Below, piece after piece: positions 8,331 to 26,184 of a stretch of 64,000 bases of DNA. The notes beneath the pieces were generated by a model that was not told where the DNA came from, did no database searches, and saw only the letters and a list, made by a program, of their open reading frames with translations. The translations under genes and the position numbers were made by a program. The stretch is from an uncultured Planctomycetota bacterium (lineage in GTDB: Bacteria > Planctomycetota > Planctomycetia > Pirellulales > Thermoguttaceae): positions 1-64,000 of the forward strand of contig CADBQY010000044.1 of the NCBI GenBank assembly GCA_902796885.1, written 5' to 3'. Position 1 is the stretch's first letter, and each line of letters opens with the position of its first letter.

Positions 8331-11300
8331 CTAGAAGCCCATGCCGCCCCCCATGCCGCCGCTCATCCCGCGGCTGCCGCCGCCCCCCATACCGCCGAAA
8401 CTGCCGCCTCCCATGCCGCTGCCTCCGCGCATACTGCTGATGCTCCCCATCCCGCGGCCGCCGCCCCCCGACATGCCGCCGTAGCCGCCGCTCAAACCGC
8501 CGCCGCCGTAGCTGCTTCCCGACATACCGCCGCCCGACGACGTGTTGTACTGAAACATGCGGAGCATTCCGCTGAACGCGGCGTTCGGGGAAATAAGAAC
8601 ATAACGCCGATCGGGAGTGACCCCCAAATTCGGCTGCATCTGCGCCCCGACCGAGATGGTGCTGATGACCGGCATATAACCGGAATCGGCGCCCAAGGTG
8701 TACTGAAGCTCAGGTGTCGTAAATTCGGTCTCGGGGTTCTTTTCCGTCGTTTTCCCCTCTTGGGTATACGACGCCGCGTAGTTCTGATTCGCCGCGGTGC
8801 GCGCCGCGGACGCCTTGGCCGAACGGGTCTGATAAGCTTTCACCTTTTCGGAAATCTCTTTGTCGGTTTTCACGCGAAGCTGCTCGACCAGCGCCGAAGC
8901 GGTCAAGAGTTCACGCTTGACTTCTTCGCTCCGCCGGCCGTTTTCCAGTTCGACGGTAAACCCGGCTTTCCCCTCTTTCATGTCAAGCGGGTAGGTGGCG
9001 ACCTTTTCGTTTTCGGTTCCGATCCCGGAAATGATATTGACGGTCACTTTTCCCTGCGGAAGCTCTCCCCAGCTCCGGCGGACGATCACGTCGTAATTGC
9101 CGGTGAACGCCATCGGACAGGTGTAGACCTTGCACCGTTCCCCTTCGTGCTGATCTTCGAGCGTCGAGGCGGTGACGGCTTCGGTTCGAAGAATCCCCCC
9201 CGCGCCGGTTCTCGGCTGACCGAACCAACAGACCGTGTTGACCGGTTCTTTCACGGAAAGGTCGATCTCGGCGTCGCCGGTCCAGCGGACCTCGATCACC
9301 AGATCGCGAACCAGCGCTTCGGTCAATTCGCGTTGATATTCGGCGAGTTCTTCGGTCCGCCCCTCTTTCTCCATTTTTGCCATCAGCTCTTCGGCCAGGC
9401 GGCTTCCCGCCTCCCAAACGTCGGATTCAAGACGCCCTTCCCACGCGCCGGAGGCGATCCCGACGGTGACCCACTTCTGGGCGTCTTCGTCCCCCGCCTC
9501 CTGGGCGAGCGCCAGGGCGCGGATATACGGTTCGGGACGCGCGGGATCGTATTTTGAGACTTCGCGGTAGAGTTCCAGAGCTTTTTTCGTCGATCCGATC
9601 GTTTCCAGATAACCCGCCACGCCCAGGATCGTCACCGGGTCGTCGGCAAATTCCGCCGCCGAGAGAATCGCCCGTTCGACCTCTTCCTGCGGGGCGTCGG
9701 CCTGCATCAGGGCGATCGCCAGCGCTTCGTACATCCAGCCGGCCGCCATGTCGGCGCGCAGCGCAGCTTTGAGCGCAGCGGCCGCCTCGTCAAAGCGCTG
9801 GGATTTCATCAGATCGTTGACCTGCTTGACAAACTCCATCTGAAAGTTGTAGAGCGCCTCCCGGTATTCCGACTGCTGCTCTTCGCGTTTCGCCTCGCGC
9901 TCTTCGTCGGATCCTTCCCCGACCGGCTCCGGCGCCTTGGGCGCCTTGGCCAGGAAGTAGTCGTCCCACTTCTGGTCGAGATCGGCCGGCGCCTTCATGA
10001 GCGTGCCGACCGGCGCGTTTTCGGCCGCCGCGGGCCGTTTATCCGCCTTGGCGGGCACATTGAAGTTTCCGCCGAAGCCGCCGCCGCGGTTCCCGCCGAA
10101 GCCGCCGCCTCCGAAGCCGCCGCCGCCCATGCCGCCCATACTGTTCCCGCCGCTCAGACCGCTAAGCGAGCCGCTCGAACTGGGTACCAGCGTCAGATCC
10201 GAAACGGGATAGTAACGCAGATGGTAGATCTCGCGCCACAGGTCGTCCGAAGATTCGAGACCGTCGATCGTGTCTTTCGTCGTAATGTACAAATATTCGT
10301 CCCGCACGCACGGCACCAGGTCGTACGGACGAAGAACGAGATTCAGGGCGGTTCGGAGGCTGACCGAAAGGAGCGTGTCCTGAATCACCATCTCGTCGAG
10401 CGAGTTTTCGCTCTCGTCGATGGCGGCGCGGTCGAAAACAATGTTGATCCCCTTTTCTCGCTTGATTTCGTTGATCCAATCGGTCAGGGGGCGGCCTTCC
10501 TCGTCGTTTTCGTCAACGCGCACGTCGACGGTGTCGTTGAGGGCGCGGACGATCTTTTTACGCGTCTCGGACTGAGTGAAGAGGGAGGCGTCGGAATATT
10601 TTTCTTTCCGCGCCTTTGACAGGGCCAGCCACGTATCGGCGTCGGGATAGATGATCGGCGGCTCGTCGGACGTCGGGATATGCGAACGTTCGACCGACAT
10701 CAAAACGTCGAGAAACCGGATCCGGCGGTATTTGCGGAGGTATTGGTTTTCGGCGTAGGCGTTCGTTAGGCGCGCCACGTTCGCCGCCTGGGTCGGAAGG
10801 GCCAGATCGTCGATCAAATCGGCGGCGGTGCTCGCCACGTCGGCGGCGAGCGTGTATTGCTCTTCGGCCACCAGCGAGTTGAACCGTTTCATGATCTCTT
10901 CGACCTTTTTCTGATTTTCGGCCCGCTGATTGGTGATCGTGGCGATGGCGGTCAGTTTGGCGTTGTTCCGCATCGCGTCGAGATCGCGTTTGTCTTTGGC
11001 GAATTTTTCGCGCTCCAGGAATCGGGCGTTCGCCTCAAGCGAGGCGAGAAGTTCTTCGCGGTCGGCGTCGGCCAGGTACGGATTGTCCTGAACCGAAACG
11101 ATCGCCAGCTTGATGTTCTGGATAGCGCCGACCGGATCTTTCACCGCCTGCTTCCGCGCGCTGTCGATGGCGGCTTTGATTTCCGATTTGACCTGAGCCG
11201 TCTTCAGACGGGTGTTCGCGTCGGAAGCCCCGAGCAGATTCGCCGAGCCGGGCGTCGAGCCGGACTCGTTTTCGTCCAGAACCGCTTCGGCGGCGGCAAA

Positions 11301-11402
11301 CGCGTCGTCTTGGTCTGCGTCATCCGAAGTCGTTTTCACCGGCGCTCCGTAAGCCGTCGCGGCCAGAAACGCCATCGAAAGAAGGAAAAGCCGGTTTCTC
11401 AT
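8331..11402 (-). CDS. Secreted STN-domain/TPR protein with Gly-rich tail
   Basis: A 1023-aa protein with a signal peptide (cleavage near AYGA-PV). Residues about 305-380 resemble the secretin/TonB short N-terminal domain: LTDWINEIKREKGINIVFD, then a LRTALNLVLRPYDL segment. A Gly/Asn-rich linker (about 405-445) follows. About 530-680 contains TPR-like helices (LEKA-type pattern, ALELYREVSKYDPARPEPY). The last 80 residues are an extreme Gly/Ser/Met repeat (SGGYGGMSGGGG). No secretin beta-barrel domain is present, so it is not itself a secretin. It probably acts in the periplasm or at the envelope as an oligomeric scaffold; this is inference. It is the first gene of the minus-strand block ending at 3005. 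Confidence 0.7.
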   Translation of the reverse strand: MRNRLFLLSMAFLAATAYGAPVKTTSDDADQDDAFAAAEAVLDENESGSTPGSANLLGASDANTRLKTAQVKSEIKAAIDSARKQAVKDPVGAIQNIKLAIVSVQDNPYLADADREELLASLEANARFLEREKFAKDKRDLDAMRNNAKLTAIATITNQRAENQKKVEEIMKRFNSLVAEEQYTLAADVASTAADLIDDLALPTQAANVARLTNAYAENQYLRKYRRIRFLDVLMSVERSHIPTSDEPPIIYPDADTWLALSKARKEKYSDASLFTQSETRKKIVRALNDTVDVRVDENDEEGRPLTDWINEIKREKGINIVFDRAAIDESENSLDEMVIQDTLLSVSLRTALNLVLRPYDLVPCVRDEYLYITTKDTIDGLESSDDLWREIYHLRYYPVSDLTLVPSSSGSLSGLSGGNSMGGMGGGGFGGGGFGGNRGGGFGGNFNVPAKADKRPAAAENAPVGTLMKAPADLDQKWDDYFLAKAPKAPEPVGEGSDEEREAKREEQQSEYREALYNFQMEFVKQVNDLMKSQRFDEAAAALKAALRADMAAGWMYEALAIALMQADAPQEEVERAILSAAEFADDPVTILGVAGYLETIGSTKKALELYREVSKYDPARPEPYIRALALAQEAGDEDAQKWVTVGIASGAWEGRLESDVWEAGSRLAEELMAKMEKEGRTEELAEYQRELTEALVRDLVIEVRWTGDAEIDLSVKEPVNTVCWFGQPRTGAGGILRTEAVTASTLEDQHEGERCKVYTCPMAFTGNYDVIVRRSWGELPQGKVTVNIISGIGTENEKVATYPLDMKEGKAGFTVELENGRRSEEVKRELLTASALVEQLRVKTDKEISEKVKAYQTRSAKASAARTAANQNYAASYTQEGKTTEKNPETEFTTPELQYTLGADSGYMPVISTISVGAQMQPNLGVTPDRRYVLISPNAAFSGMLRMFQYNTSSGGGMSGSSYGGGGLSGGYGGMSGGGGRGMGSISSMRGGSGMGGGSFGGMGGGGSRGMSGGMGGGMGF

Positions 11403-13256: not shown

Positions 13257-13284
13257 TTGCATTCTCCTCTTTGCGGATTATAAT
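13257..13284 (+). promoter_or_regulatory. Promoter of the pilT operon
   Basis: TTGCAT at 13257-13262 and a perfect TATAAT at 13279-13284 are separated by 16 bp. Transcription would begin near 13291, about 110 bases before the chosen pilT start. Confidence 0.7.
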
Positions 13285-13401
13285 GGGTAGGTGCCGACCG
13301 GTTAATAGTGACATAATAGAGTTTCGGCAATCTTTCACAAAACCGCGCGCCGGAAACGACCGGCGCCGCCAATGATTTCCAACTACGGGAGCTGTCAGGC
13401 C

Positions 13402-14550
13402 ATGTCATCCGCTGATTCGGGAGGGGAACTCCATTTTACGCGCAAAAAGAAAGAACTCGAAATCGACGCGCTCTTTCGGGCCCTGGTTAAGTTCAAGGGA
13501 AGCGACCTTCACCTGAAAGTCGACCGCCCCCCTTATATCCGCGTTAAAGGGAGCCTCCGTACCCTGAACCGCGGACCGATCGACGACGAAGAGATGGAAC
13601 GGCTCATCTTTCCGATGATGGACGAACGAAACCGAAAGATCTACAACAACGACGGCGGCGCCGACTTCGCGCACACCTGTTTGTGCGACGGGGTACAGTG
13701 GCGGTTCCGCGTCAATGTTCTGACGCAGATGGGGCATATCGGCCTGGTTGCCCGCCGCATCAACAACGACATCCCCGAACTCGAAAAACTTCACCTGCCG
13801 CCCGTCCTTTACAACCTCTGCAAGCACGAACAGGGAATGATTCTCCTGGCGGGGGTTACGGGAAGCGGCAAGTCGACGACGATCGCCAGCATGCTCAACT
13901 GGGTCAATCGGAATTACTACAAACATATCCTGACCCTAGAAGACCCGATCGAATTCATGTTCACCGAAGACAAATGCCTGATCAATCAGCGCGAAATCGG
14001 ACAGGACGTGATCGACTTCAGCGTCGGAATGAAACATGCCGTGCGGGAAGACCCCGACGTGATGCTCGTCGGGGAAATGCGTGACCGCGAAACGTTCGAA
14101 ACGGCCATTCACGCCGCCGAAACGGGGCACTTGGTCTTCGGGACAATCCACGCCTCGTCGGCGCCTTCGACGATCGGGCGTATCCTCGACCTTTTCCCCG
14201 CCAATATGCATAAGGCGATCCGCAGCGCTCTGGCACTGAACATGAAAGGGATCGTCGCGCAAAAGCTCCTCCCGTCGATTCTCCCCGGAGTTCAGCGCGT
14301 GCCGACCTGCGAAATCATGATCTTCAACAGCATCGTTCAGAAACTCGTTCTCGAAGAACATGACGAAAAGCTTGCCGACGCGGTTCGTATCGGCGCGCAG
14401 GAAGGGATGCAGGACTTCACGATGAGCCTGAAAAATCTCGTGCAGGCGAAGAAAATCGACCGGGCCACGGCGTTTCAGGTCGCGCCGAACATCGAATCGC
14501 TGAAGATGGCCCTCAAGGGGATCGAAGTCAAAGAACCGGGTATTCTGTAA
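13402..14550 (+). CDS. pilT: PilT-type retraction ATPase
   Basis: A 382-aa hexameric secretion/pilus ATPase. It has the N-terminal PAS-like segment with SDLHLKVDRPPYIRVKG, Walker A GVTGSGKST (about 151-159), the Asp box LTLEDPIEF, Walker B VMLVGEMRD (about 220-228) and the His box TGHLVFGTIHAS (about 241-252). All catalytic residues are intact. In characterised species PilT hydrolyses ATP to retract type IV pili. I prefer the ATG at 13402 because GGGAG lies 10 bases upstream; an ATG at 13372 is also in frame but has no ribosome-binding site. It is the first gene of a tight operon whose next two genes are larger relatives with broken P-loops. No pilin or platform gene accompanies it. Confidence 0.93.
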   Translation: MSSADSGGELHFTRKKKELEIDALFRALVKFKGSDLHLKVDRPPYIRVKGSLRTLNRGPIDDEEMERLIFPMMDERNRKIYNNDGGADFAHTCLCDGVQWRFRVNVLTQMGHIGLVARRINNDIPELEKLHLPPVLYNLCKHEQGMILLAGVTGSGKSTTIASMLNWVNRNYYKHILTLEDPIEFMFTEDKCLINQREIGQDVIDFSVGMKHAVREDPDVMLVGEMRDRETFETAIHAAETGHLVFGTIHASSAPSTIGRILDLFPANMHKAIRSALALNMKGIVAQKLLPSILPGVQRVPTCEIMIFNSIVQKLVLEEHDEKLADAVRIGAQEGMQDFTMSLKNLVQAKKIDRATAFQVAPNIESLKMALKGIEVKEPGIL

Positions 14551-14558
14551 TTCCGCAT

Positions 14559-16538
14559 ATGACACACACACCGCTTCAAACCGCGCGCCGCGTTTTTACC
14601 GCGGCGCTCCTTCCGATGATCCTCTTCCTTCTGGTCGGTTTCCCGGCCGATTCGGCCGAGGCCGCAAAGAAAAAAAAAGGTGAGGAAAATAAGCAAACAG
14701 AAGACTACTACAGCCCAGAAAACTGGTACGGCAACTTCTTCAAGTCGTTCAAAATCTGGAGCAAGGAACTCCGATACACGAACGATTCGGCCAAAACGGT
14801 CGCCGAAATGGGAAAAGATCTGCGAAAAGAAGGCTGGCGGAAAGAGCCGGGGCACTTTTACAGCGCTACGAAACTCGTTTTGCTGATGCTCCTCTTCTGG
14901 ATCTGGACCGCCACCACGACTTGGGTTAATAACGACGCCCAGCGGCTGGTCGATCTCCATCGGGTCGAGTGGAACACCGCGCAGGTGGCCCCTTTTCCGA
15001 TCGGGTTTCTTCTGCTTCTTTTCATTCCGATTTTCTGGGTCGGGTATCCGGTCCTCATTCTCTTCTGGTTCGTCCCTCTGTGTTCCTACATCGTTCACCG
15101 CAACTCGGGTGTTCTCGACGCCGACAAGGTTATGACGCCCGACCATTTGGTCTTTCTGCTCAAACGGCTTTTCGGGATGGACGTGAGCAAACCGAAACCG
15201 ATGGCGTATATGACCGGCGCGCCGATCGAGATTATTTCGTGGGGGAAACGCGTCTCGGACGAAGCCAAACAGGGACGGACGATCGCCGCGCGGAATCAGC
15301 AGCCGGGATTCAACCACTTTAAAGAGGTGGTCTATCAGGCGATTCGCCACAACGCCATGATGATCCGCGTCACCACCGGCCCGACGCAGGCCGGGATTTC
15401 GTTCTTCATCGACGGGGTCTGGATTCCGATGAACAACGTCCTCGATCCCGCCCGAAAACGTCCCGTCTCGCCGCAGGATACCGGCGCGATCACCCGCGCC
15501 ATGAAAGTTCTCGTCGGCGCCGACGCCGACGAACACGCCCGCCGTCAAGGGGGCGAGTTCATGATGAAATACGATCGGAAAAAGAAGATGGAGGCGCTTC
15601 TGGTCACCCAGGGAAAAGCGGGGGTCGAAGAGGCGCTCGTTCAGTTCCAGCTTCTGAGTCTTCCGTTCAACTCGCTCGAAGAGCTGGGGATGACGCCGCG
15701 TCGGCAGGAGATGTTCCGCAAAATTCTCGCCGCCGAAAAGGGACTTTGTCTTTTGGGCGCCGCGCCGGGGCAGGGGCTCCGCACTTTCACCAACGTGGCG
15801 TTCAACGCAACCGACCGGTTTACGCGCGACTTTGTCACGGTCGAAGACGTCCAGCGCGCCTACATGACGATCGAAAACCTGACGAAAGTCACCTACGATT
15901 CCGCCAAAAAAGAGACGCCGATGACCGTTCTGCCCGACGTCTTCTTCAAGGAGCCGAAAGTTCTCCTTCTGCGCGACATCGTCAACCTCGACACTCTCAA
16001 ACTCTGTTGTGAAGAGGTAAATCACGATCGGCTGATCGTCAGCACGTTCCGCGGGATCGACGCGGCCGACACCATCATGCGGGTCTTACAGACCGGCGTC
16101 CCCCGAAAACTCTTTGCCGATTCCCTCTTTGCCGTCGTGACCCAGCGGCTGATCCGCCGTCTCTGCCCCCATTGTAAGGAAGAGATCCCCGCGCCGCCGG
16201 AACTCGTCCGCCGTCTGGGGCTCAACCCGCAGACGGTCAAAACCGTCTTCCGCCGCCGCGTACACGCCGCCCCCGAACCGGGTCAGAAGGATCATTACGA
16301 ACCGTGTCCTCACTGCCTCGAAATCGGATACTGGGGCCGGGCCGGCGTCTACGACGTGATTCTGGCGAACGACGAGATCCGTCAAATCATCGTCTCCAAC
16401 CCTTCGGCCGACGCGATCCGAAAAGCCGCGCTCAAAACGGGAAGCCGCGGTTACTTTACCGACGGCGCCGAGCTGGTCGGAAGCGGCGTGACGTCGTTCG
16501 ACGAGTTCCGCCGCTTCATGCAGGGAGGGGGTAAATAA
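14559..16538 (+). CDS. Membrane-anchored PilB/GspE-like pseudo-ATPase (copy A)
   Basis: A 659-aa protein beginning 8 bp after pilT. Residues 12-33 form a signal or anchor helix, followed by a Lys run encoded by nine A. Helices lie at about 105-122 and 147-179. Residues 215-659 have the GspE/PilB layout, including the C-module cysteines C536/C539 and C583/C586 (CPHC in both) and a GRAGVYDVI segment. The P-loop is destroyed: GAAPGQGLRT (400-409) lacks the invariant Lys. The Walker B region reads VLLLRDIVNLDT in place of the usual GEIRD form, and the His box is NHDRLIVSTFRG. It should not hydrolyse ATP in the normal way. I infer a structural partner of PilT or a membrane platform. Confidence 0.82.
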   Translation: MTHTPLQTARRVFTAALLPMILFLLVGFPADSAEAAKKKKGEENKQTEDYYSPENWYGNFFKSFKIWSKELRYTNDSAKTVAEMGKDLRKEGWRKEPGHFYSATKLVLLMLLFWIWTATTTWVNNDAQRLVDLHRVEWNTAQVAPFPIGFLLLLFIPIFWVGYPVLILFWFVPLCSYIVHRNSGVLDADKVMTPDHLVFLLKRLFGMDVSKPKPMAYMTGAPIEIISWGKRVSDEAKQGRTIAARNQQPGFNHFKEVVYQAIRHNAMMIRVTTGPTQAGISFFIDGVWIPMNNVLDPARKRPVSPQDTGAITRAMKVLVGADADEHARRQGGEFMMKYDRKKKMEALLVTQGKAGVEEALVQFQLLSLPFNSLEELGMTPRRQEMFRKILAAEKGLCLLGAAPGQGLRTFTNVAFNATDRFTRDFVTVEDVQRAYMTIENLTKVTYDSAKKETPMTVLPDVFFKEPKVLLLRDIVNLDTLKLCCEEVNHDRLIVSTFRGIDAADTIMRVLQTGVPRKLFADSLFAVVTQRLIRRLCPHCKEEIPAPPELVRRLGLNPQTVKTVFRRRVHAAPEPGQKDHYEPCPHCLEIGYWGRAGVYDVILANDEIRQIIVSNPSADAIRKAALKTGSRGYFTDGAELVGSGVTSFDEFRRFMQGGGK

Positions 16539-18775
16539 TGGATCTGTTCACGCTCTGTCTATACGCCCTTTGCGCGCTCTTCGTCGGCTCGATCGCCTAT
16601 GTCCTCTGGCAAAAGGGGTTCTGGCCCGGTCTGTGCGGGGCGTGCGCTTTCTTTCTCTCTTTATTCTTCGCGCTCCGTTACGACGTCGCCGCGACAAAAA
16701 TTCTGGTTCCTCTCAAAGAGTACACAACGGCGTCGTTCCTGGCGGTGCTGGTCATCGGAAGTATGGTTTTCGGAGTGATCACCTCTCAGGCGCGTCCTCT
16801 GAAATACTACTTTTCGAAGAAAGCGGATAAATTTGCCAATATCGCCCCGCTGGCCGTCATGATCGTTCTTTGCGTCGTCCTGGTGGCGGTCGGGAAACGC
16901 TATACGCCTTCCAACGCCGCCTCCGTTCCAACTATCGGCGCGGCCGAAAAAACCGATAATTCAAACGGTCTGCGGGATCGACTCGGCGAGTTTAACGCGA
17001 AACTCGGTCAGCCAGACGGCGATAAAGTCATCGGCGCCGCGGCCGATATTCAGAAGTTTTTCTCGTTCCCTCTCCAGATCACTCTCGTGCTGGTCTTTAC
17101 CCTCTGGACGATGACAGGCGCCTGGGTCGCCGAAGACGCGCCGAAGATTAAAAAGATCTCCAACCCGACCGCCTGGAAAGTGATCTTCGCGGTCGTTTTT
17201 CCGCTCGGGATGTTCATCGGGATCCTATTGCCGATCTTCGTGGTCGACGCGCTGGTTCCCCTTCTTCTGTTCGCCGTGCCGGCGTTGATATACGCCGCGA
17301 TCCACAACAAAAACGTCCCCGACTCGGATAAAGTTCTGACTCCCGACCATTTCGGGCGCCTCATGCGCCGGATGTCGGGGGGTAAAAAGAAAAAGGGGGG
17401 ACGGCGCGTCATCGAAATGACGGTCATCGACCTGTCCGCCTACGGGAAAACGCTTCCGAAAGACGCTCTGAAAGCGCGTACCGAAGCCGCGCGTTCCCTC
17501 CCAGGATACACGCCGTTCGGCACGATCGTGAACAACGCCCTTCTGCGCCGCGCGACGATGGTGCAGTTCGACTACAACGACCAAAAGAGCGAGCTGAAAT
17601 ATTTCGTCGACGGACTTTGGCATCCGGTCACCGACCTGTTCCGCCGACCGCTCACCCCTCAGGCCTCGCGCGAGCTCTGTATGTCGATGCGTGCCATTTT
17701 GGGGGACAACTCTCCGTTGGATGCCGAAATCCAAAATCGGAACAAAGACGAAAAAGCCCCAAAAATTCAGATCCCGCCGAAAGTCGTCGGTCAATTTTTC
17801 ATTGAATATGACAAGCGGGGCGGCAAAAAAAAGAAGATGGCGGCGAAGCTCCTCGTTCAGACCAAGGGGAGCGGGGAAGGGGCGCTTATTCAGTTCGAGC
17901 GTCTGGCTATCCGTTTCGGCTCCTACGAAAAGATGCGCGTCGGCGAAAAGCGGGGACAGCAGCTCAAAGACCTGATGAACCAACCGAAAGGACTTCTCGT
18001 TTTTGCCGCACCGCCCGGTCAGGGTCTGCGCACCTTTACCGAAGTGTCGCTCTGCGAGACCGACCGGTTTACGCGCGACGCGGCCACGGTCGAAGACGTG
18101 CGGCACCCGTACCTGCCGATCGAGAATCTTCCGCTGACCACCTACGACTCTTCAAAAGGAGAGACGCCGATGACGGTTCTGCCGGGCGTTTTCTTCAGAG
18201 AACCGAGACTCCTTTTGATCCGCGACCTGGTCAACAAGGAAACGCTCCGGCTCTGCTGCGACGAGATCCAGAACGAACGAATGATTATCACCACGCTTCG
18301 CGCCAAAACGTCGGCGCAGGCGCTGATGCTCCTTCTGCGGTTCGGCATCGACCCGAAAGTACTGGCCGACTCGCTCACCGCGATCGTCACCCAGCGGTTG
18401 ATCCGGACCCTTTGTCCGGAATGTAAAGAAGAAATTCCCGCGACCGACGAAATGTGTCGGCGGGTCGGGATTCCGCAGGGGCGGGTCAAATCGTTCTACC
18501 GGCGAAGAGTACACGTTCCGCCCGAACAGGGACGCGATCCTTACGTACCGTGTAAACACTGCATGGAAACCGGGTATCACGGTCTGGCCGGTTTGTATGA
18601 CGTGATTGTGGTTAACGACCTGATCCGCCAGATTATGACGACCAAGCCGAGCGAAGAAGCCATACAGCGAGCCGCGATGAAAACCGGCGGCGGAACGTTC
18701 CTTTCCGACGGCGTCAGGATGCTCGCCGAAGGAATGACTTCCTTCGAAGAACTTTCGCGCGTTTTAAAACAATAA
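16538..18775 (+). CDS. Membrane-anchored PilB/GspE-like pseudo-ATPase (copy B)
   Basis: A 745-aa paralogue of copy A, joined to it by a TAATG stop/start overlap. The N-terminal 250 residues hold about six or seven membrane helices (about 4-24, 30-46, 66-84, 102-120, 178-196, 212-256). The GspE-like part follows, with LCPECKEEI at about 625-633 and a second cysteine pair CKHCMETGY near the C-terminus. The P-loop equivalent is APPGQGLRTF (491-500), with the same Lys-to-Leu/Arg loss as copy A, and the His box is NERMIITTLRAK. Because both copies share the exact GQGLRTFT replacement, the loss predates the duplication or is selected. Role unknown; probably works with PilT and copy A. Confidence 0.82.
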   Translation: MDLFTLCLYALCALFVGSIAYVLWQKGFWPGLCGACAFFLSLFFALRYDVAATKILVPLKEYTTASFLAVLVIGSMVFGVITSQARPLKYYFSKKADKFANIAPLAVMIVLCVVLVAVGKRYTPSNAASVPTIGAAEKTDNSNGLRDRLGEFNAKLGQPDGDKVIGAAADIQKFFSFPLQITLVLVFTLWTMTGAWVAEDAPKIKKISNPTAWKVIFAVVFPLGMFIGILLPIFVVDALVPLLLFAVPALIYAAIHNKNVPDSDKVLTPDHFGRLMRRMSGGKKKKGGRRVIEMTVIDLSAYGKTLPKDALKARTEAARSLPGYTPFGTIVNNALLRRATMVQFDYNDQKSELKYFVDGLWHPVTDLFRRPLTPQASRELCMSMRAILGDNSPLDAEIQNRNKDEKAPKIQIPPKVVGQFFIEYDKRGGKKKKMAAKLLVQTKGSGEGALIQFERLAIRFGSYEKMRVGEKRGQQLKDLMNQPKGLLVFAAPPGQGLRTFTEVSLCETDRFTRDAATVEDVRHPYLPIENLPLTTYDSSKGETPMTVLPGVFFREPRLLLIRDLVNKETLRLCCDEIQNERMIITTLRAKTSAQALMLLLRFGIDPKVLADSLTAIVTQRLIRTLCPECKEEIPATDEMCRRVGIPQGRVKSFYRRRVHVPPEQGRDPYVPCKHCMETGYHGLAGLYDVIVVNDLIRQIMTTKPSEEAIQRAAMKTGGGTFLSDGVRMLAEGMTSFEELSRVLKQ

Positions 18776-18830
18776 ACCGACACAAACATCGGGTTCTTCC
18801 CGACAGACAGAAATTAACAAAGGGGCCCCC

Positions 18831-19520
18831 ATGTGGATTGATTTTTCGACATATCCAATGTTCTGGATCTGCTGTCCGGTCATTCTCCTCTGCCTTTTGG
18901 GTTTTTGCAGAAAGGAGTCGCTCTGGACGATCCTGTTGATCCCTTTCTGCCTCTTTTTCGCCACGTTTTTTGCCCTGGGCTACTACCAGCCGCTGGCGAA
19001 TCTGCTTGACCGCTTCTTGCCGAAATACGCGTTTTACAACGATTTGGTGGCGTTCACTCTGATTTACGCCGCGGTTTTTGCCGTTAATACTTTCGCCACT
19101 CATTTTATTTCGCGAATCAACATTTTCTTCCCCGAAAAGGTTAATTTGATCGGAAACATCTCGCTTTTGGCGGTGATCTTTCTGGTCTTCTATTTCTGTG
19201 TGGCGCCCATTTTCTTCTACCTGATTCCGGAGGCGCCGCCACGGAAAAATTTTGATAACCTGCAGCCGATGCCGCAGTTCGGGTTCTATGAACGTGTTTC
19301 GCGGAATTCGCTCCGTCCGATCGGCGGCGATCCGAAAACCGACGAATTCAACTTTAATGACTATTACAAAGCCGAAGTCGGCAAGAACTCGATCGTCTAT
19401 TCCCAGGTCCTCGCGGTTTCGGGAAGCGAAAAAGCCAAAGGGGACGAATGGCAGCAGAAGGAAAAGGTTTCGCCGAACGTGACGGTGAAGAAAAAAGACG
19501 AAAAAAAGAAGAAAAAGTAG
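18831..19520 (+). CDS. CvpA-like membrane protein
   Basis: A 229-aa protein with four predicted helices in its first 130 residues. The segment FFALGYYQPLANLLDRFLP followed by DLVAFTLIYAAVFAVNTF resembles the CvpA (colicin V production) family pattern, in which a re-entrant or paired-helix region precedes a long hydrophobic helix. The similarity is judged by eye. The C-terminal 100 residues are hydrophilic and end in an extreme Lys run (KKKDEKKKKK). It is the fourth gene of the pilT operon, 55 bp after copy B, with AAAGGGG before the start. CvpA proteins are membrane factors without an agreed biochemical function. Confidence 0.6.
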   Translation: MWIDFSTYPMFWICCPVILLCLLGFCRKESLWTILLIPFCLFFATFFALGYYQPLANLLDRFLPKYAFYNDLVAFTLIYAAVFAVNTFATHFISRINIFFPEKVNLIGNISLLAVIFLVFYFCVAPIFFYLIPEAPPRKNFDNLQPMPQFGFYERVSRNSLRPIGGDPKTDEFNFNDYYKAEVGKNSIVYSQVLAVSGSEKAKGDEWQQKEKVSPNVTVKKKDEKKKKK

Positions 19521-19559
19521 TTTTACCTCCCGTTCTCGAAAAAGAGAAAGAAAAGAACG

Positions 19560-20339
19560 ATGCTGTTTGACGACTCCGCCCCGGAAAAGACCGACTTTCA
19601 GATGCAAACCTGGAGTGAAGAGAACGATTCCGCCGAGCACTTTTCAGCGGTAAGTCTTTCGGCAATTTTCGCGCTTCTTTTCGCGATCGCCTCGCTCTTT
19701 TACCTGATCAACCGAAGCCTTCTGCCGGTTTCGGTCGCGGCGCTCGGTTTGTCCCTGTTCGCGCTCCGGCGGATTCGACGCGCCGAAGGGCGTCTGACCG
19801 GCGGGTCGATGGCGCGGATCGCGCTCTTTTTAACCATCGTCGTACTTGTCGCCGTTCCGGTCCGTTCCGCGATCTATCGTCGGCAACTGATCAAACAGGG
19901 AAAAGAATTTTTCTCTCTGGTGATCGAGGCGGCCCAAAAAGGAGATTCGGCGGCGCTAAGCCAGCTCAGACGATTTCAGACATCCCGCGAAGAGATTTCC
20001 GACGAGGCCGCCTACTGGCGCGAACTGCTTAACGACCCGATGGCCGCACCCGGCACGGTTCAGCTCTTGGGGAACAGGGTTCTTCTGGCGATTTATCTTC
20101 TGGGAGAAAACGCGAAAATCACCTATTGCCGAACCGCCAATATCAACCGGGACGAAAAACACGACGGCGATTCCGTCTGTATGATATACGCCGTCACCTA
20201 TTCGGAACACGGCGAAAAGAAAACTTTCTTCGTCCCCTTTTACGGCTCCCGTCTGCGCGACAAAAAAAACGGAGTGGCGCTCTGGAAGTGTTCCGGTTAC
20301 CCCAAACAGCCGCTTCCGCTTAAAGGAACTTCCGAATGA
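19560..20339 (+). CDS. Small membrane protein, DUF4190-like N-terminus
   Basis: A 259-aa protein of unknown function. After an acidic 28-residue N-terminus come two or three membrane helices. The stretch LSLFALRRIRRAEGRLTGG plus the next helix fits the DUF4190 pattern (helix, arginine-rich turn with a GG, helix). Residues about 100-259 are soluble: a charged helical part, then a beta-rich region with YAVTYSEHGEKKTFFVPFYG. It lies 39 bp after the CvpA-like gene, and its stop overlaps the dinG start as ATGA, so the operon runs into dinG. Confidence 0.6.
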   Translation: MLFDDSAPEKTDFQMQTWSEENDSAEHFSAVSLSAIFALLFAIASLFYLINRSLLPVSVAALGLSLFALRRIRRAEGRLTGGSMARIALFLTIVVLVAVPVRSAIYRRQLIKQGKEFFSLVIEAAQKGDSAALSQLRRFQTSREEISDEAAYWRELLNDPMAAPGTVQLLGNRVLLAIYLLGENAKITYCRTANINRDEKHDGDSVCMIYAVTYSEHGEKKTFFVPFYGSRLRDKKNGVALWKCSGYPKQPLPLKGTSE

Positions 20340-22432
20340 ACCTGAATTACAAGGATGTTTTGGGGGAAGACGGACTGGTTTCCCGAAGATTACCGAATTA
20401 CGAGGTACGTCCGGAACAGATGAGCCTGGCCGAGGCTGTAGACGAAGCCATCCGGGACGGGCAGCATTTGGTGGCCGAAGCCGGTACGGGAGTGGGAAAA
20501 AGTTTTGCCTATCTGGTTCCCGCAATTCTCCACGCGGTCGCCGATCAGAATCTTTCAAATCTCGATTCCGGCATCGACCCTTTTGTTGAAGACGACCCCA
20601 CGTCGCGCCGTGTGGTCATTTCAACCCACACCATCGCCCTTCAGGAACAGTTATATAACAAGGACATTCCGTTTCTCAGCAGTATTCTTCCTTTTGAATT
20701 CTCGTCGGTTTTGATGAAAGGAAGGTCGAACTACCTCTGTTTGCGTCGGCTGCGCGCCGCCGCCGCGCGTACGAAATCGCTCTTTTCGACCGACGATGAT
20801 TCGGATCAATTGAACCGAATCGCGGAATGGAGCCGCGAAACGACCGACGGTTCTCTTGCCGACCTGAATCCGCAGCCTCCGTTAAACGTTTGGTCCGAAG
20901 TTTCCTGCGAAGAGGGAAACTGTATGGGACGGGCTTGTAAATTATACAAAGACTGCTTTTATCAGGCGGCGCGGCGGCGGGTTGAACGCGCCTCCGTCGT
21001 TATCGTGAACCACGCGCTCCTTTTCAGCGATCTGGCGGTACGCGCCCAGGGAGGTTCGATTATTCCAAACTACAATACGCTCGTTTTTGACGAAGCGCAC
21101 ACGATGGAACAGACCGCCGGCGACCACCTGGGGCTTTCGATCACCCAGGGCCAGATCCGCTTCCTTCTGAACCGCCTTTGGAACGGAAAGACGCGAAAAG
21201 GACTCCTGGCCGATTCGAGCGATAAACCCTCCGATGAATCTACGCTCCCGCTCGCTTCGGCTCAGGAACTGAAAGAAGCGTTCCGCGCCGCCAGGCGTAC
21301 CGTCGAAGACTGTCAGTTTCGCTGCGAAGAACTTTTCAACGACCTGGAGGAATGGCTCTCGGCGCGTCCCGGATCGAACGGACGTGTGATGGAACCGGAG
21401 ATCGTCGGCCGCGGAATGGAAGAAGGGTTGATTCGCCTCTCTTCGGCTCTCTACAGTGTGACGGCCCTTCTTGCCAATCCCGAACGAAAAGTTGAGCTCG
21501 GCGCCGCGCGGCAGCGCGTTTTGACGATTAAGGGAAACCTCACAGCGTGGATCACGCAGTCCGACTCGGAGATGGTCTACTGGCTCGAACGGATCTCTTC
21601 CCGTCGGAACGAAACGGTCAAAATGCTTGCCGCACCGATCAACGTCGGCTCCATTCTCCGGGAAGATCTTTTTTCGAAAGTTCGTTCGGTCATTATGACC
21701 AGCGCGACGCTTTCGGCAGAATCGAGCGCCCCGCCGCGCGACGGAAAGTCAACCCCGTTTCACTACTTTCAGTCGCGAGTCGGTCTTTCCGGCGCGAAGA
21801 CTCTTCTGCTGGGAAGTCCCTTTAACTACAAAGAAAACGTCACGTTGATCGTTCCGAGCCATATCTCCCCTCCGCGCGAAAAAGGAAATTCCTCCGACGC
21901 CGAGTTTTACGACGGGATTTATAAATATCTCCGTCAAACCGAAGGCGGCGCGTTTGTTCTTTTCACGAATTATTCACTCATGAAGAGAACCGCCGAGGCG
22001 CTGACTCCCAAGTTGGTTATTTTAAACTATCCGATTTTAACACAGGGCGCCGGTGTTTCACGCTCGAAGATGATCGAAACGTTCCGAAAGAATCGGAATT
22101 CCGTCCTTTTCGGAACCGACTCGTTCTGGCAAGGGGTCGACGTGCCGGGCGACGCCCTGCGCAACGTCATCATCACCCAGCTTCCGTTCGCGGTTCCGAC
22201 CTATCCTCTGACCGAGGCGCGGTGCGAGGCGATCACCCTGGCCGGGGGAAACAGTTTCCGCGAATATTCGATTCCCGAGGCTGTGATCAAGCTGAAACAA
22301 GGGTTCGGCCGCCTGGTCCGTAAGGCGGACGATCGAGGGATCGTCGTGATTATGGACTCTAGGATTCTGACGAAAAGTTACGGAAAAATCTTCCTGCGCG
22401 CGCTCCCCGACTGCAGATTTCTCAAGGATTAG
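20336..22432 (+). CDS. dinG: DinG-type ATP-dependent DNA helicase
   Basis: A 698-aa superfamily 2 helicase of the XPD/DinG group. Walker A is AEAGTGVGKSFAYL (48-61), the DEAH box is VFDEAHTMEQ, and motif VI is QGFGRLVRKADD near the C-terminus, preceded by FWQGVDVPG. Four cysteines between motifs Ia and II (YLCLRR, CEEGNC, GRACK, KDCF) have the spacing of the iron-sulfur cluster found in this group. The protein unwinds DNA 5'-3', typically in repair of R-loops or stalled forks. There is no N-terminal exonuclease domain. It is the last gene of the pilT operon, starting inside the stop codon of the previous gene. Confidence 0.93.
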   Translation: MNLNYKDVLGEDGLVSRRLPNYEVRPEQMSLAEAVDEAIRDGQHLVAEAGTGVGKSFAYLVPAILHAVADQNLSNLDSGIDPFVEDDPTSRRVVISTHTIALQEQLYNKDIPFLSSILPFEFSSVLMKGRSNYLCLRRLRAAAARTKSLFSTDDDSDQLNRIAEWSRETTDGSLADLNPQPPLNVWSEVSCEEGNCMGRACKLYKDCFYQAARRRVERASVVIVNHALLFSDLAVRAQGGSIIPNYNTLVFDEAHTMEQTAGDHLGLSITQGQIRFLLNRLWNGKTRKGLLADSSDKPSDESTLPLASAQELKEAFRAARRTVEDCQFRCEELFNDLEEWLSARPGSNGRVMEPEIVGRGMEEGLIRLSSALYSVTALLANPERKVELGAARQRVLTIKGNLTAWITQSDSEMVYWLERISSRRNETVKMLAAPINVGSILREDLFSKVRSVIMTSATLSAESSAPPRDGKSTPFHYFQSRVGLSGAKTLLLGSPFNYKENVTLIVPSHISPPREKGNSSDAEFYDGIYKYLRQTEGGAFVLFTNYSLMKRTAEALTPKLVILNYPILTQGAGVSRSKMIETFRKNRNSVLFGTDSFWQGVDVPGDALRNVIITQLPFAVPTYPLTEARCEAITLAGGNSFREYSIPEAVIKLKQGFGRLVRKADDRGIVVIMDSRILTKSYGKIFLRALPDCRFLKD

Positions 22433-24225: not shown

Positions 24226-26184
24226 CTAATTGGTCGAGTCAAGGTAAGGATCCTGACCCATCCCCTTTTGAACCTTCTTTCGTTCCTTTTCGAAATAGAG
24301 CATTGTCTTTCGGGAACGATAACTCTTCTTTTCAACTTTCTTCTGAGCTTTGTAGAACTTTCTGATCTTGTTATTAAAGAGCCGGTCTTCGGCACCCTCT
24401 CCCAAGGCGGCGAATTTATTCGCCTTTTTCGGTCCGTACGCCTTTTCGATGATCTCGTCTTCCAGCGAGAGATACTGCCGATACGATCCGGGATCCCCCT
24501 GTCGCCCGCAACGACCGATCAGCTGCCGGTCGATACGAGCCGATTCGTGGAGTTCGGTGCAGATGACATGGAGACCTCCGATCTGGAGAACTTCTTCCGG
24601 CAATCGGATGTCGGTTCCGCGGCCGGCCATGTTCGTTGAGACGGTCACCTTTCCCCATTGCCCGGCATCGGCGACGATTCCCGCTTCCGCCTCAATGTGA
24701 TTCGCGTTTAAGACCTGATGTTCAATTCCGACTTTTTGGAGAAGCGAGGAGAGAATTTCCGACTTATCGATCGTTCGTGTTCCGATCAGAACAGCGCGTC
24801 CCATGGCGTGAAGTTCCTGAATCTCTTTCACAATGGCAAGCCACTTTGCCTTTTCGGTCGGATAGACGAGCGTTTCCAATTTCACCCGTCGCGGCGGACG
24901 GTTCGTCGGCACCGGAATGACGTGGCAACGATAGATTTTATGAAGTTCCGTTTTCGAGGCCCAGGCGGTACCGGTCATCCCTCCCAGATGTTCGAAACGG
25001 AGAAAGAAATCCTGAACCGTGATTCGAGCGGCCTGCCCCGTCGCGACGGTAATTTCAACCCCTTCTTTGGCTTCGACCGCCTGATGAATGCCGTCGCGCC
25101 ATTTTCGGCCTTCTCCCAAACGGCCGGTAAACTCGTCGACAATCACGATTTCGCCGTCCCGAACGATATACTGCTGATCAAGTTTATATTCACGGTCGAC
25201 TTTAATGGCGCGCTGTACATATTCGTAGACGTGGAAAAGGCCGGTCGTCGCCATCTCGTCCGGTTTCGGAAGCTGTCGTGCTTTCAGACGTCCTTTTCTC
25301 GTCAGTTCGACCGTCTTCTTTTCGTGGTCGTATTCGTAGTCTTCGTCTTCGACGAACTCATAGACTTTGTCGGCCGCCCACTTGAACGCCGCCACTTCCT
25401 GCTTCTGCTCTTCGGTCGGCAGGGCGCTGATAATCAACGGCGTACTCGCCTCGTCGATTAGGATACTGTCCGCCTCGTCGACCAAACAGAAGTAGGGGAT
25501 TTCGCGTTGGGTCGGCTGTTCGTTGTTTACGCGCTTATTTTCAAGCATCGCTCCCAAAAGGTCTGTTTGGCCTTCCCGAATCCGGCGTAAAAGGAGCCGA
25601 TCGCGCAGAAAGTCGAAACCGAATTCTTTCGCCGTGCCGTAGGTGATGTCGCATTGATACGCATCACGCCGCTGCGGCGTCGGCTGCTGGGTCTGGATCA
25701 CTCCGATTTTCATCCCGAGCGCCTTGTAAACCGGTCCCATCAATTCCGCGTCGCGAGCCGCCAGGTAGTCGTTGACCGTCGCCAGCATCGCCCCTTTACC
25801 GCTGAGGGCGTGAAGATACATCGGCGAGGTCGCCGTGAGGGTTTTTCCCTCCCCCGTCTGCATTTCAACGATCGAGTTGTTAAAAATGGCGATTCCGCCG
25901 AGCATTTGCACGTCGAAATGGCGCATACCGATATTTCGGACCGCAGCCTCTCGAACCAAGGCGAACGCTTCGGGAAGAAGGCGTGAGAGGGGTTCGCCGC
26001 TCCGGGCGCGGTATCGGAGCGAAAGACTCTTTTTTCGGAGCTCTTTGTCGGTCAGCTTCTGGACTTCCGGCTCGAGCGCGTTGATCTTATCGAGTTCATA
26101 AGACCAACGCGCCAGATAACCCTTATGCGTACCAATGAGGAGACGATCAAGACTCCTTCCGATTCCCGACGGTATAGCGCCCAA
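24226..26184 (-). CDS. secA: Short SecA-type preprotein translocase ATPase
   Basis: A 652-aa SecA homologue. NBD1 has Walker A MQTGEGKT (108-115), LATVNDYLAARD and LVDEADSILIDEA. The preprotein cross-linking segment is present (DFFLRFEHLGGMTGTA follows it), and NBD2 shows STNMAGRGTDI and GRCGRQGDPGS. It ends about 50 residues after NBD2 in a basic tail. The helical wing, most of the scaffold domain and the zinc-binding C-terminal linker of an 800-900-residue SecA are absent. This is a complete ORF, not a frameshift. It may be an accessory translocase or a specialised clade member; a full-length SecA should exist elsewhere if so. Confidence 0.88.
   Translation of the reverse strand: MGAIPSGIGRSLDRLLIGTHKGYLARWSYELDKINALEPEVQKLTDKELRKKSLSLRYRARSGEPLSRLLPEAFALVREAAVRNIGMRHFDVQMLGGIAIFNNSIVEMQTGEGKTLTATSPMYLHALSGKGAMLATVNDYLAARDAELMGPVYKALGMKIGVIQTQQPTPQRRDAYQCDITYGTAKEFGFDFLRDRLLLRRIREGQTDLLGAMLENKRVNNEQPTQREIPYFCLVDEADSILIDEASTPLIISALPTEEQKQEVAAFKWAADKVYEFVEDEDYEYDHEKKTVELTRKGRLKARQLPKPDEMATTGLFHVYEYVQRAIKVDREYKLDQQYIVRDGEIVIVDEFTGRLGEGRKWRDGIHQAVEAKEGVEITVATGQAARITVQDFFLRFEHLGGMTGTAWASKTELHKIYRCHVIPVPTNRPPRRVKLETLVYPTEKAKWLAIVKEIQELHAMGRAVLIGTRTIDKSEILSSLLQKVGIEHQVLNANHIEAEAGIVADAGQWGKVTVSTNMAGRGTDIRLPEEVLQIGGLHVICTELHESARIDRQLIGRCGRQGDPGSYRQYLSLEDEIIEKAYGPKKANKFAALGEGAEDRLFNNKIRKFYKAQKKVEKKSYRSRKTMLYFEKERKKVQKGMGQDPYLDSTN

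Follow-up and report, generated by a model that had tools for sequence, protein, structure and literature searches.

Intact block-type PilT beside a membrane-anchored PilB-type protein with a predicted dead ATP site in Pirellulales

A gene block in which an intact PilT-type ATPase is followed by a membrane-anchored PilB-like protein, named mPilB, was characterized in a 64,000-nucleotide stretch of DNA from an uncultured planctomycete (the window), which carries two copies of the mPilB gene, A and B. The reading favoured here, with a probability of about 0.5, is that mPilB may serve as a membrane-bound, non-hydrolysing stator or adaptor driven by the PilT of the block, the protein having been active ancestrally, dead in the order Pirellulales and duplicated in the window's genus. 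The new element would be a PilB-type partner that is anchored in the membrane and dead throughout Pirellulales, beside a live block-type PilT. No published description of the pilT-mPilB block was found in the open-access literature searched.

Organization of the block

The window belongs to a gut-derived genome of Thermoguttaceae type, order Pirellulales, and some MAGs of its close relatives came from yak and goat duodenum. Open reading frames for pilT, A, B, S1, S2 and dinG all lie on the + strand and are closely packed. The first, pilT (13402-14550), encodes a block-type PilT ATPase of 382 residues that has all catalytic motifs intact and is orthologous across the phylum. It is followed by gene A (14559-16538), which encodes a membrane-anchored PilB/GspE-like pseudo-ATPase of 659 residues, and by gene B (16538-18775), the product of which has 745 residues. 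Downstream are S1 (18831-19520), S2 (19560-20339), which encodes a DUF4190-like membrane protein so far seen only with Pirellulales blocks, and a dinG/yoaA-type helicase gene (20336-22432) that overlaps S2 by 4 bases and is regarded as a neighbourhood gene. Hydrophobic segments numbered three in A, approximately seven in B, four in S1, three in S2 and zero in PilT. Assignment of S1, which followed mPilB in most loci that were read, to the CvpA family of membrane proteins (Colicin_V, PF02674) was made from orthologues, three of which scored above the cut-off of 29.3 (47, 38 and 31 bits) as opposed to 13 bits (E 0.085), i.e., below the cut-off, for S1 of the window.

The block-type PilT

The PilT of the window scored 390.4 bits against TIGR01420 (NCBIfam pilT_fam, cut-off 319.1) and contains the motifs GSGKST, GEMRD and TGHLV...IHA, in agreement with a preliminary description of this DNA in which pilT was said to have every catalytic motif. 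Walker A, Walker B, the Asp box and the His box were intact in 90 of 90 aligned block-type PilT sequences. Identity between the block PilT and the PilT of the canonical T4P cluster in the window's genome was 41%. All 12 genomes tested contained one block-type PilT (59-77% identity) and one or two canonical PilTs (36-43%), and the distinction between the two types held in these genomes even where the block-type gene was unlinked from mPilB. These comparisons mark the PilT of the block as a protein distinct from T4P PilT.

Sequence and predicted fold of A and B

Matches of A and B to PF00437 (T2SSE) were well above the cut-off of 24.9 (121 bits for A and 96 bits for B), and both proteins, as judged from sequence, are clearly of the traffic-ATPase kind. 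The domain order in A is N-terminal hydrophobic helices, N2 domain, dead ATPase domain and Cys4 zinc site. Like the assembly ATPases PilB and GspE, A and B contain an N2 domain, a RecA-like fold and a Cys4 zinc site but, unlike these ATPases, they have N-terminal membrane helices and are without catalytic residues. At the position of the Walker A motif, GxxxxGK[ST], the sequence GQGLRTFT was noted in both A (15768-15791 on the + strand, residues 404-411) and B (residues 494-501). In Walker B of both proteins RD replaces GE, and the His box is gone, so that the Walker A Lys, the Walker B Glu and the His box are all absent; the four cysteines of the zinc site are retained as CxxC pairs at residues 536 and 583 of A and 626 and 672 of B. 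The preliminary description of A and B, with GQGLRTFT, a lost His box, two CxxC pairs each and membrane helices at the N terminus, was confirmed.

The structure predicted for A by AlphaFold2, with a mean pLDDT of 83, matched PilB, PilF and GspE structures at Z 30-37 over residues 245-658. The match to PilB 5tsh (Z 37, residues 245-654) indicates that the fold has been retained without the catalytic site. Scores of A and B against the PilB and GspE equivalog profiles (90-142 bits) were far below the cut-offs (617-850), and an intact orthologue (L116) likewise fell under every PilB or GspE equivalog cut-off. The same substituted residues were present in four other MAGs of the window's clade and the tandem pair was present in two further genomes of the same genus, so that the substitutions are not a product of sequencing error or chance.

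Distribution, gene order and duplication

In nearly all of 40 further loci from the window's order, the gene directly after pilT was a single PilB-like gene, the product of which has helices at its N terminus. PilT adjoined the pseudo-ATPase in 48 of 51 Pirellulales loci, the exceptions being two loci at contig ends (L009 and L081) and one locus in which the genes were unlinked (L076). Conservation of the gene order and of the altered P-loop among related genomes, proposed earlier as a check, was borne out in that adjacency of pilT to the pseudo-ATPase and loss of the P-loop Lys were both order-wide in Pirellulales. A profile (A1) built from 37 mPilB members retrieved full-length relatives from further orders within the class and from some classes beyond it, whereas a number of genomes, and in particular many in family f23, had no full-length relative. 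The order pilT-mPilB-S1 was the same in most non-Pirellulales loci with relatives. In sister family f22, most mPilB genes did not adjoin pilT and the block-type PilT was encoded elsewhere in the genome. The distribution indicates a block that is widespread through Planctomycetota, the usual form of which is one mPilB after a distinct, always-intact PilT.

Two full copies of mPilB were present only in the window's genus (G000, G481 and G500), and a single mPilB was present in each of the 53 remaining family genomes that gave a match, in one of them split across two contigs. In the mPilB tree, A and B appeared as sister lineages inside the window's family. The pair is best described as a recent tandem duplication, limited to the genus, and not as a general architecture; the two-member design put forward in the preliminary description does not extend to the single-copy genomes.

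Loss of the ATP site

The intact mPilB proteins of other planctomycete orders and classes resemble A and B in having a membrane domain and a zinc site, and in being encoded mostly after pilT with a CvpA-like gene next. Unlike A and B, however, they carry all catalytic motifs; the active-site Lys, Glu and His were present in 41 orthologues from outside Pirellulales, with one exception at each His. Among 57 mPilB sequences from Pirellulales, the Walker A Lys was absent from 56 (Leu in 47), the Walker B Glu was kept in five (Asp in its place in 44), the first His of the His box was gone from 53 and the second His was found in none. The four zinc cysteines were each present in 56 or 57 of these sequences. 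The second Gly of the P-loop was also kept, as was the Asp-box Glu in 53 sequences, and Arg followed the lost Lys in only 22. A part-way state, in which the Lys was kept, the His box was lost and Walker B was altered, was seen in five proteins of f21 and f25, and eight mPilB proteins from other classes were also dead. Relatives with an intact GK[ST], which the preliminary description had named as counter-evidence should they occur in close species, were found in sister orders but not in close species, a pattern that points to an old, active protein in which catalysis was lost secondarily.

In mPilB trees computed without the motif columns, the Pirellulales proteins formed one clade with full support (100*). 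The tree of the companion PilTs placed the eight other dead loci outside the class, and a single clade of all dead loci was rejected (p-AU 0.021). At least two independent complete losses are therefore supported, barring horizontal transfer, i.e., one in the ancestor of Pirellulales and one in another class-level lineage. The close grouping of dead lineages that was seen in the mPilB tree alone is probably the result of long-branch attraction. A single death of mPilB was rejected, again barring horizontal transfer, on the separation of the dead lineages in the PilT tree.

Two further loci contained unusual PilB-like genes. An independent second copy of mPilB (L077:8785-10101, genome G109) has the P-loop sequence GDGKSTLW, without Walker B and His box, and is the only one of the 57 Pirellulales proteins with a Walker A lysine. 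In genome G059, a gene located approximately 4-5 kb upstream of pilT in a block with a dead mPilB (L078:2693-4369) encodes an intact PilB-like protein, the N terminus of which has two hydrophobic segments; this protein branched outside the mPilB family in the tree and thus looks like an older paralogue.

Selection on the dead proteins

Values of dN/dS, obtained from Nei-Gojobori counts between the window and three relatives (dS 0.4-1.4), were 0.08-0.15 for A, 0.10-0.13 for B, approximately 0.1 for S1 and 0.002-0.015 for PilT. The 145 positions conserved in intact orthologues were divided into four regions, the boundaries of which were set on the L124 protein at residues 160, 345 and 480. Pirellulales proteins kept 8 of the 12 positions in the membrane part and 20 of the 30 in the zinc/C-terminal part, but only 10 of the 41 N2 positions and 7 of the 62 in the ATPase core (i.e., 55 of the 62 core positions were lost). 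At matched PilT divergence (70-75% identity), identity between mPilB proteins was 41% in Pirellulales as opposed to 61% in intact lineages. These figures place dead mPilB under purifying selection, by which the anchor and the C-terminal module have been kept and catalysis has been dropped. In some f16 genera of Pirellulales (L082, L149, L154, L173 and L174), dead mPilB proteins of approximately 440-460 residues have also lost the membrane part, which weakens the case for anchoring as a universal role.

Neighbouring genes and canonical T4P/T2SS genes

The position of dinG differed between genomes, in which it was upstream, downstream or not nearby, and hisF was the upstream neighbour in most other genomes. 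Both genes are mere neighbours, and neither points to a DNA or histidine function. A DNA-linked apparatus, which had been suggested from the presence of dinG in the window, is not supported in view of this variation.

No match to PF00482, PF01478, PF00263 or PF07963 was found on the window's contig (C44), so that the earlier observation of no pilin, PilC/GspF, prepilin peptidase or secretin gene in the window holds for the whole contig. A search elsewhere in the genome located all of these on other contigs. C30 carries a canonical pilB-pilT-pilB-pilC cluster, C78 a GspE/GspF region, C35 a prepilin peptidase gene, and C160 and C165 secretin genes; the 23 pilin-like N-termini of the genome are likewise all off the window's contig. 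Matches to PF00482 (PilC/GspF) were limited to contigs C30, C74 and C78. Since ordinary T4P/T2SS genes are present elsewhere in the genome, the suggestion that the block is a reduced pilus base was abandoned.

Proposed role of mPilB

The mPilB of Pirellulales is without an ATP site yet strongly selected, which suggests that it is probably a structural coupling part for a working motor. On this reading, mPilB is a protein that is held in the inner membrane by helices at its N terminus and that was ancestrally an active ATPase; its ATP site was lost in the ancestor of Pirellulales, and the dead gene was later doubled into A and B in the window's genus. A and B may form a non-hydrolysing, membrane-bound ring, or a stator or adaptor, that tethers the cytoplasmic ring of PilT to the membrane. 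The ATP-driven movement of PilT would pass through A and B to the CvpA-like protein and other envelope partners, and possibly also to filaments that belong to the separate T4P/T2SS apparatus, with catalysis supplied by PilT alone. The separation of most f22 mPilB genes from pilT, and the finding that the block in the window's genome has no linked pilin, PilC or secretin gene, count against this reading. What survives of the preliminary description, in which PilT was thought to act with pseudo-ATPase platforms, is the pairing itself (48 of 51 loci), now joined by evidence of purifying selection, and a probable platform or adaptor function; the pilus base and the DNA-linked apparatus do not. A literature search for CvpA linked to PilT-type motors found none.

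The nearest known parallel is the PilT/PilU pair of retraction ATPases in the type IVa pili of V. cholerae, P. aeruginosa and A. baylyi, in which, as in the block, two traffic ATPases are encoded side by side. In V. cholerae, PilU-driven retraction still takes place when PilT carries Walker mutations but not when pilT is deleted, and PilT and PilU are separate homohexamers that may form a complex (PMC6821130, PMC6762196). An ATPase-dead PilT that still supports its partner (PMC6821130, PMC6762196) parallels the reading of mPilB as a stator or adaptor. The pairs differ in that the dead state of PilT was engineered and both partners are PilT-type, whereas the dead partner in the block is natural, PilB-type and membrane-anchored and the PilT is live. 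The block offers a natural, order-wide counterpart of the mutants made by pilus researchers, i.e., a non-hydrolysing traffic ATPase beside a live partner. With dead and intact orthologues in the same gene order, the regions of a PilB-type protein that serve coupling could be told apart directly from those that serve catalysis.

A fair chance, though one short of even, is given to the block as an accessory of the canonical T4P/T2SS, in which the block PilT would be a PilU-like second retraction motor and mPilB its docking subunit, a reading compatible with mPilB as a stator. Retraction motors are often encoded apart from the pilus cluster, the PilT of the block is PilT-type and T4P/T2SS genes are present elsewhere in the genome. 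However, the T4P cluster already has a canonical PilT, one or two of which accompanied the block-type PilT in each of the 12 genomes tested, and no PilT known to us depends on a membrane-anchored PilB. More tentatively, PilT, mPilB and the CvpA-like protein may constitute a separate, PilT-driven membrane machine of Planctomycetota, distinct from T4P, T2SS and Tad, in which one of two ATPase rings became a non-hydrolysing stator several times, each time independently.

It is rather doubtful that mPilB is instead a regulator or sensor, through which a redox/zinc or ligand signal switches PilT or keeps it from the main T4P machine. A selected dead enzyme with a conserved Cys4 site and a membrane domain fits such a role, as do the standing of the membrane part among the best-kept regions and the extreme constraint on PilT. 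Against this, the Cys4 site is also found in canonical PilB/GspE and is not, therefore, novel in mPilB, and an active ancestor speaks for a mechanical origin. Binding or even hydrolysis of nucleotide by A and B through a non-canonical site is improbable. Although the second Gly, the Asp-box Glu (53 of 57), the Asp at the Walker B position (44 of 57) and the Arg after the lost Lys might contribute to such a site, that Arg was present in 22 of 57 sequences only, Leu replaced the Lys in 47, the His box had lost its second His in all and its first in 53, and only 7 of 62 conserved core positions were kept. Decay of A and B as relics retained solely by linkage, for which their faster evolution than that of intact orthologues might be cited, can be dismissed almost entirely from dN/dS values of approximately 0.1, open frames in aligned loci, residues that are invariant throughout the order and retention of the duplicate.

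The block is also a phylum-wide motor candidate for the dextran-fibre and uptake machinery of planctomycetes, in which dextran was bound on pili-like fibres that extend from crateriform structures and was apparently internalised in part (PMC5394234). The secretion locus treated in a paper on essential genes of P. limnophila (Plim_0401-0410) is a different one.

Other genes near the block

A 1023-residue protein encoded upstream of the block on the opposite strand (8331-11402) gave weak TPR matches, contains long glycine- and methionine-rich stretches and is kept in this position across the clade (L010-L012). On the far side of the block, also on the - strand, is a SecA paralogue (24226-26184) of 652 residues, which is shorter than normal, is 97% identical in relatives and, at 678 bits against SecA cut-offs of 800-814, fell under all SecA and SecA2 cut-offs. 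The genome also encodes a full-length SecA, at L113:9395-13165 on contig C30, close to the pilB-pilT cluster, and both the short paralogue and the full-length protein seem to have been kept.
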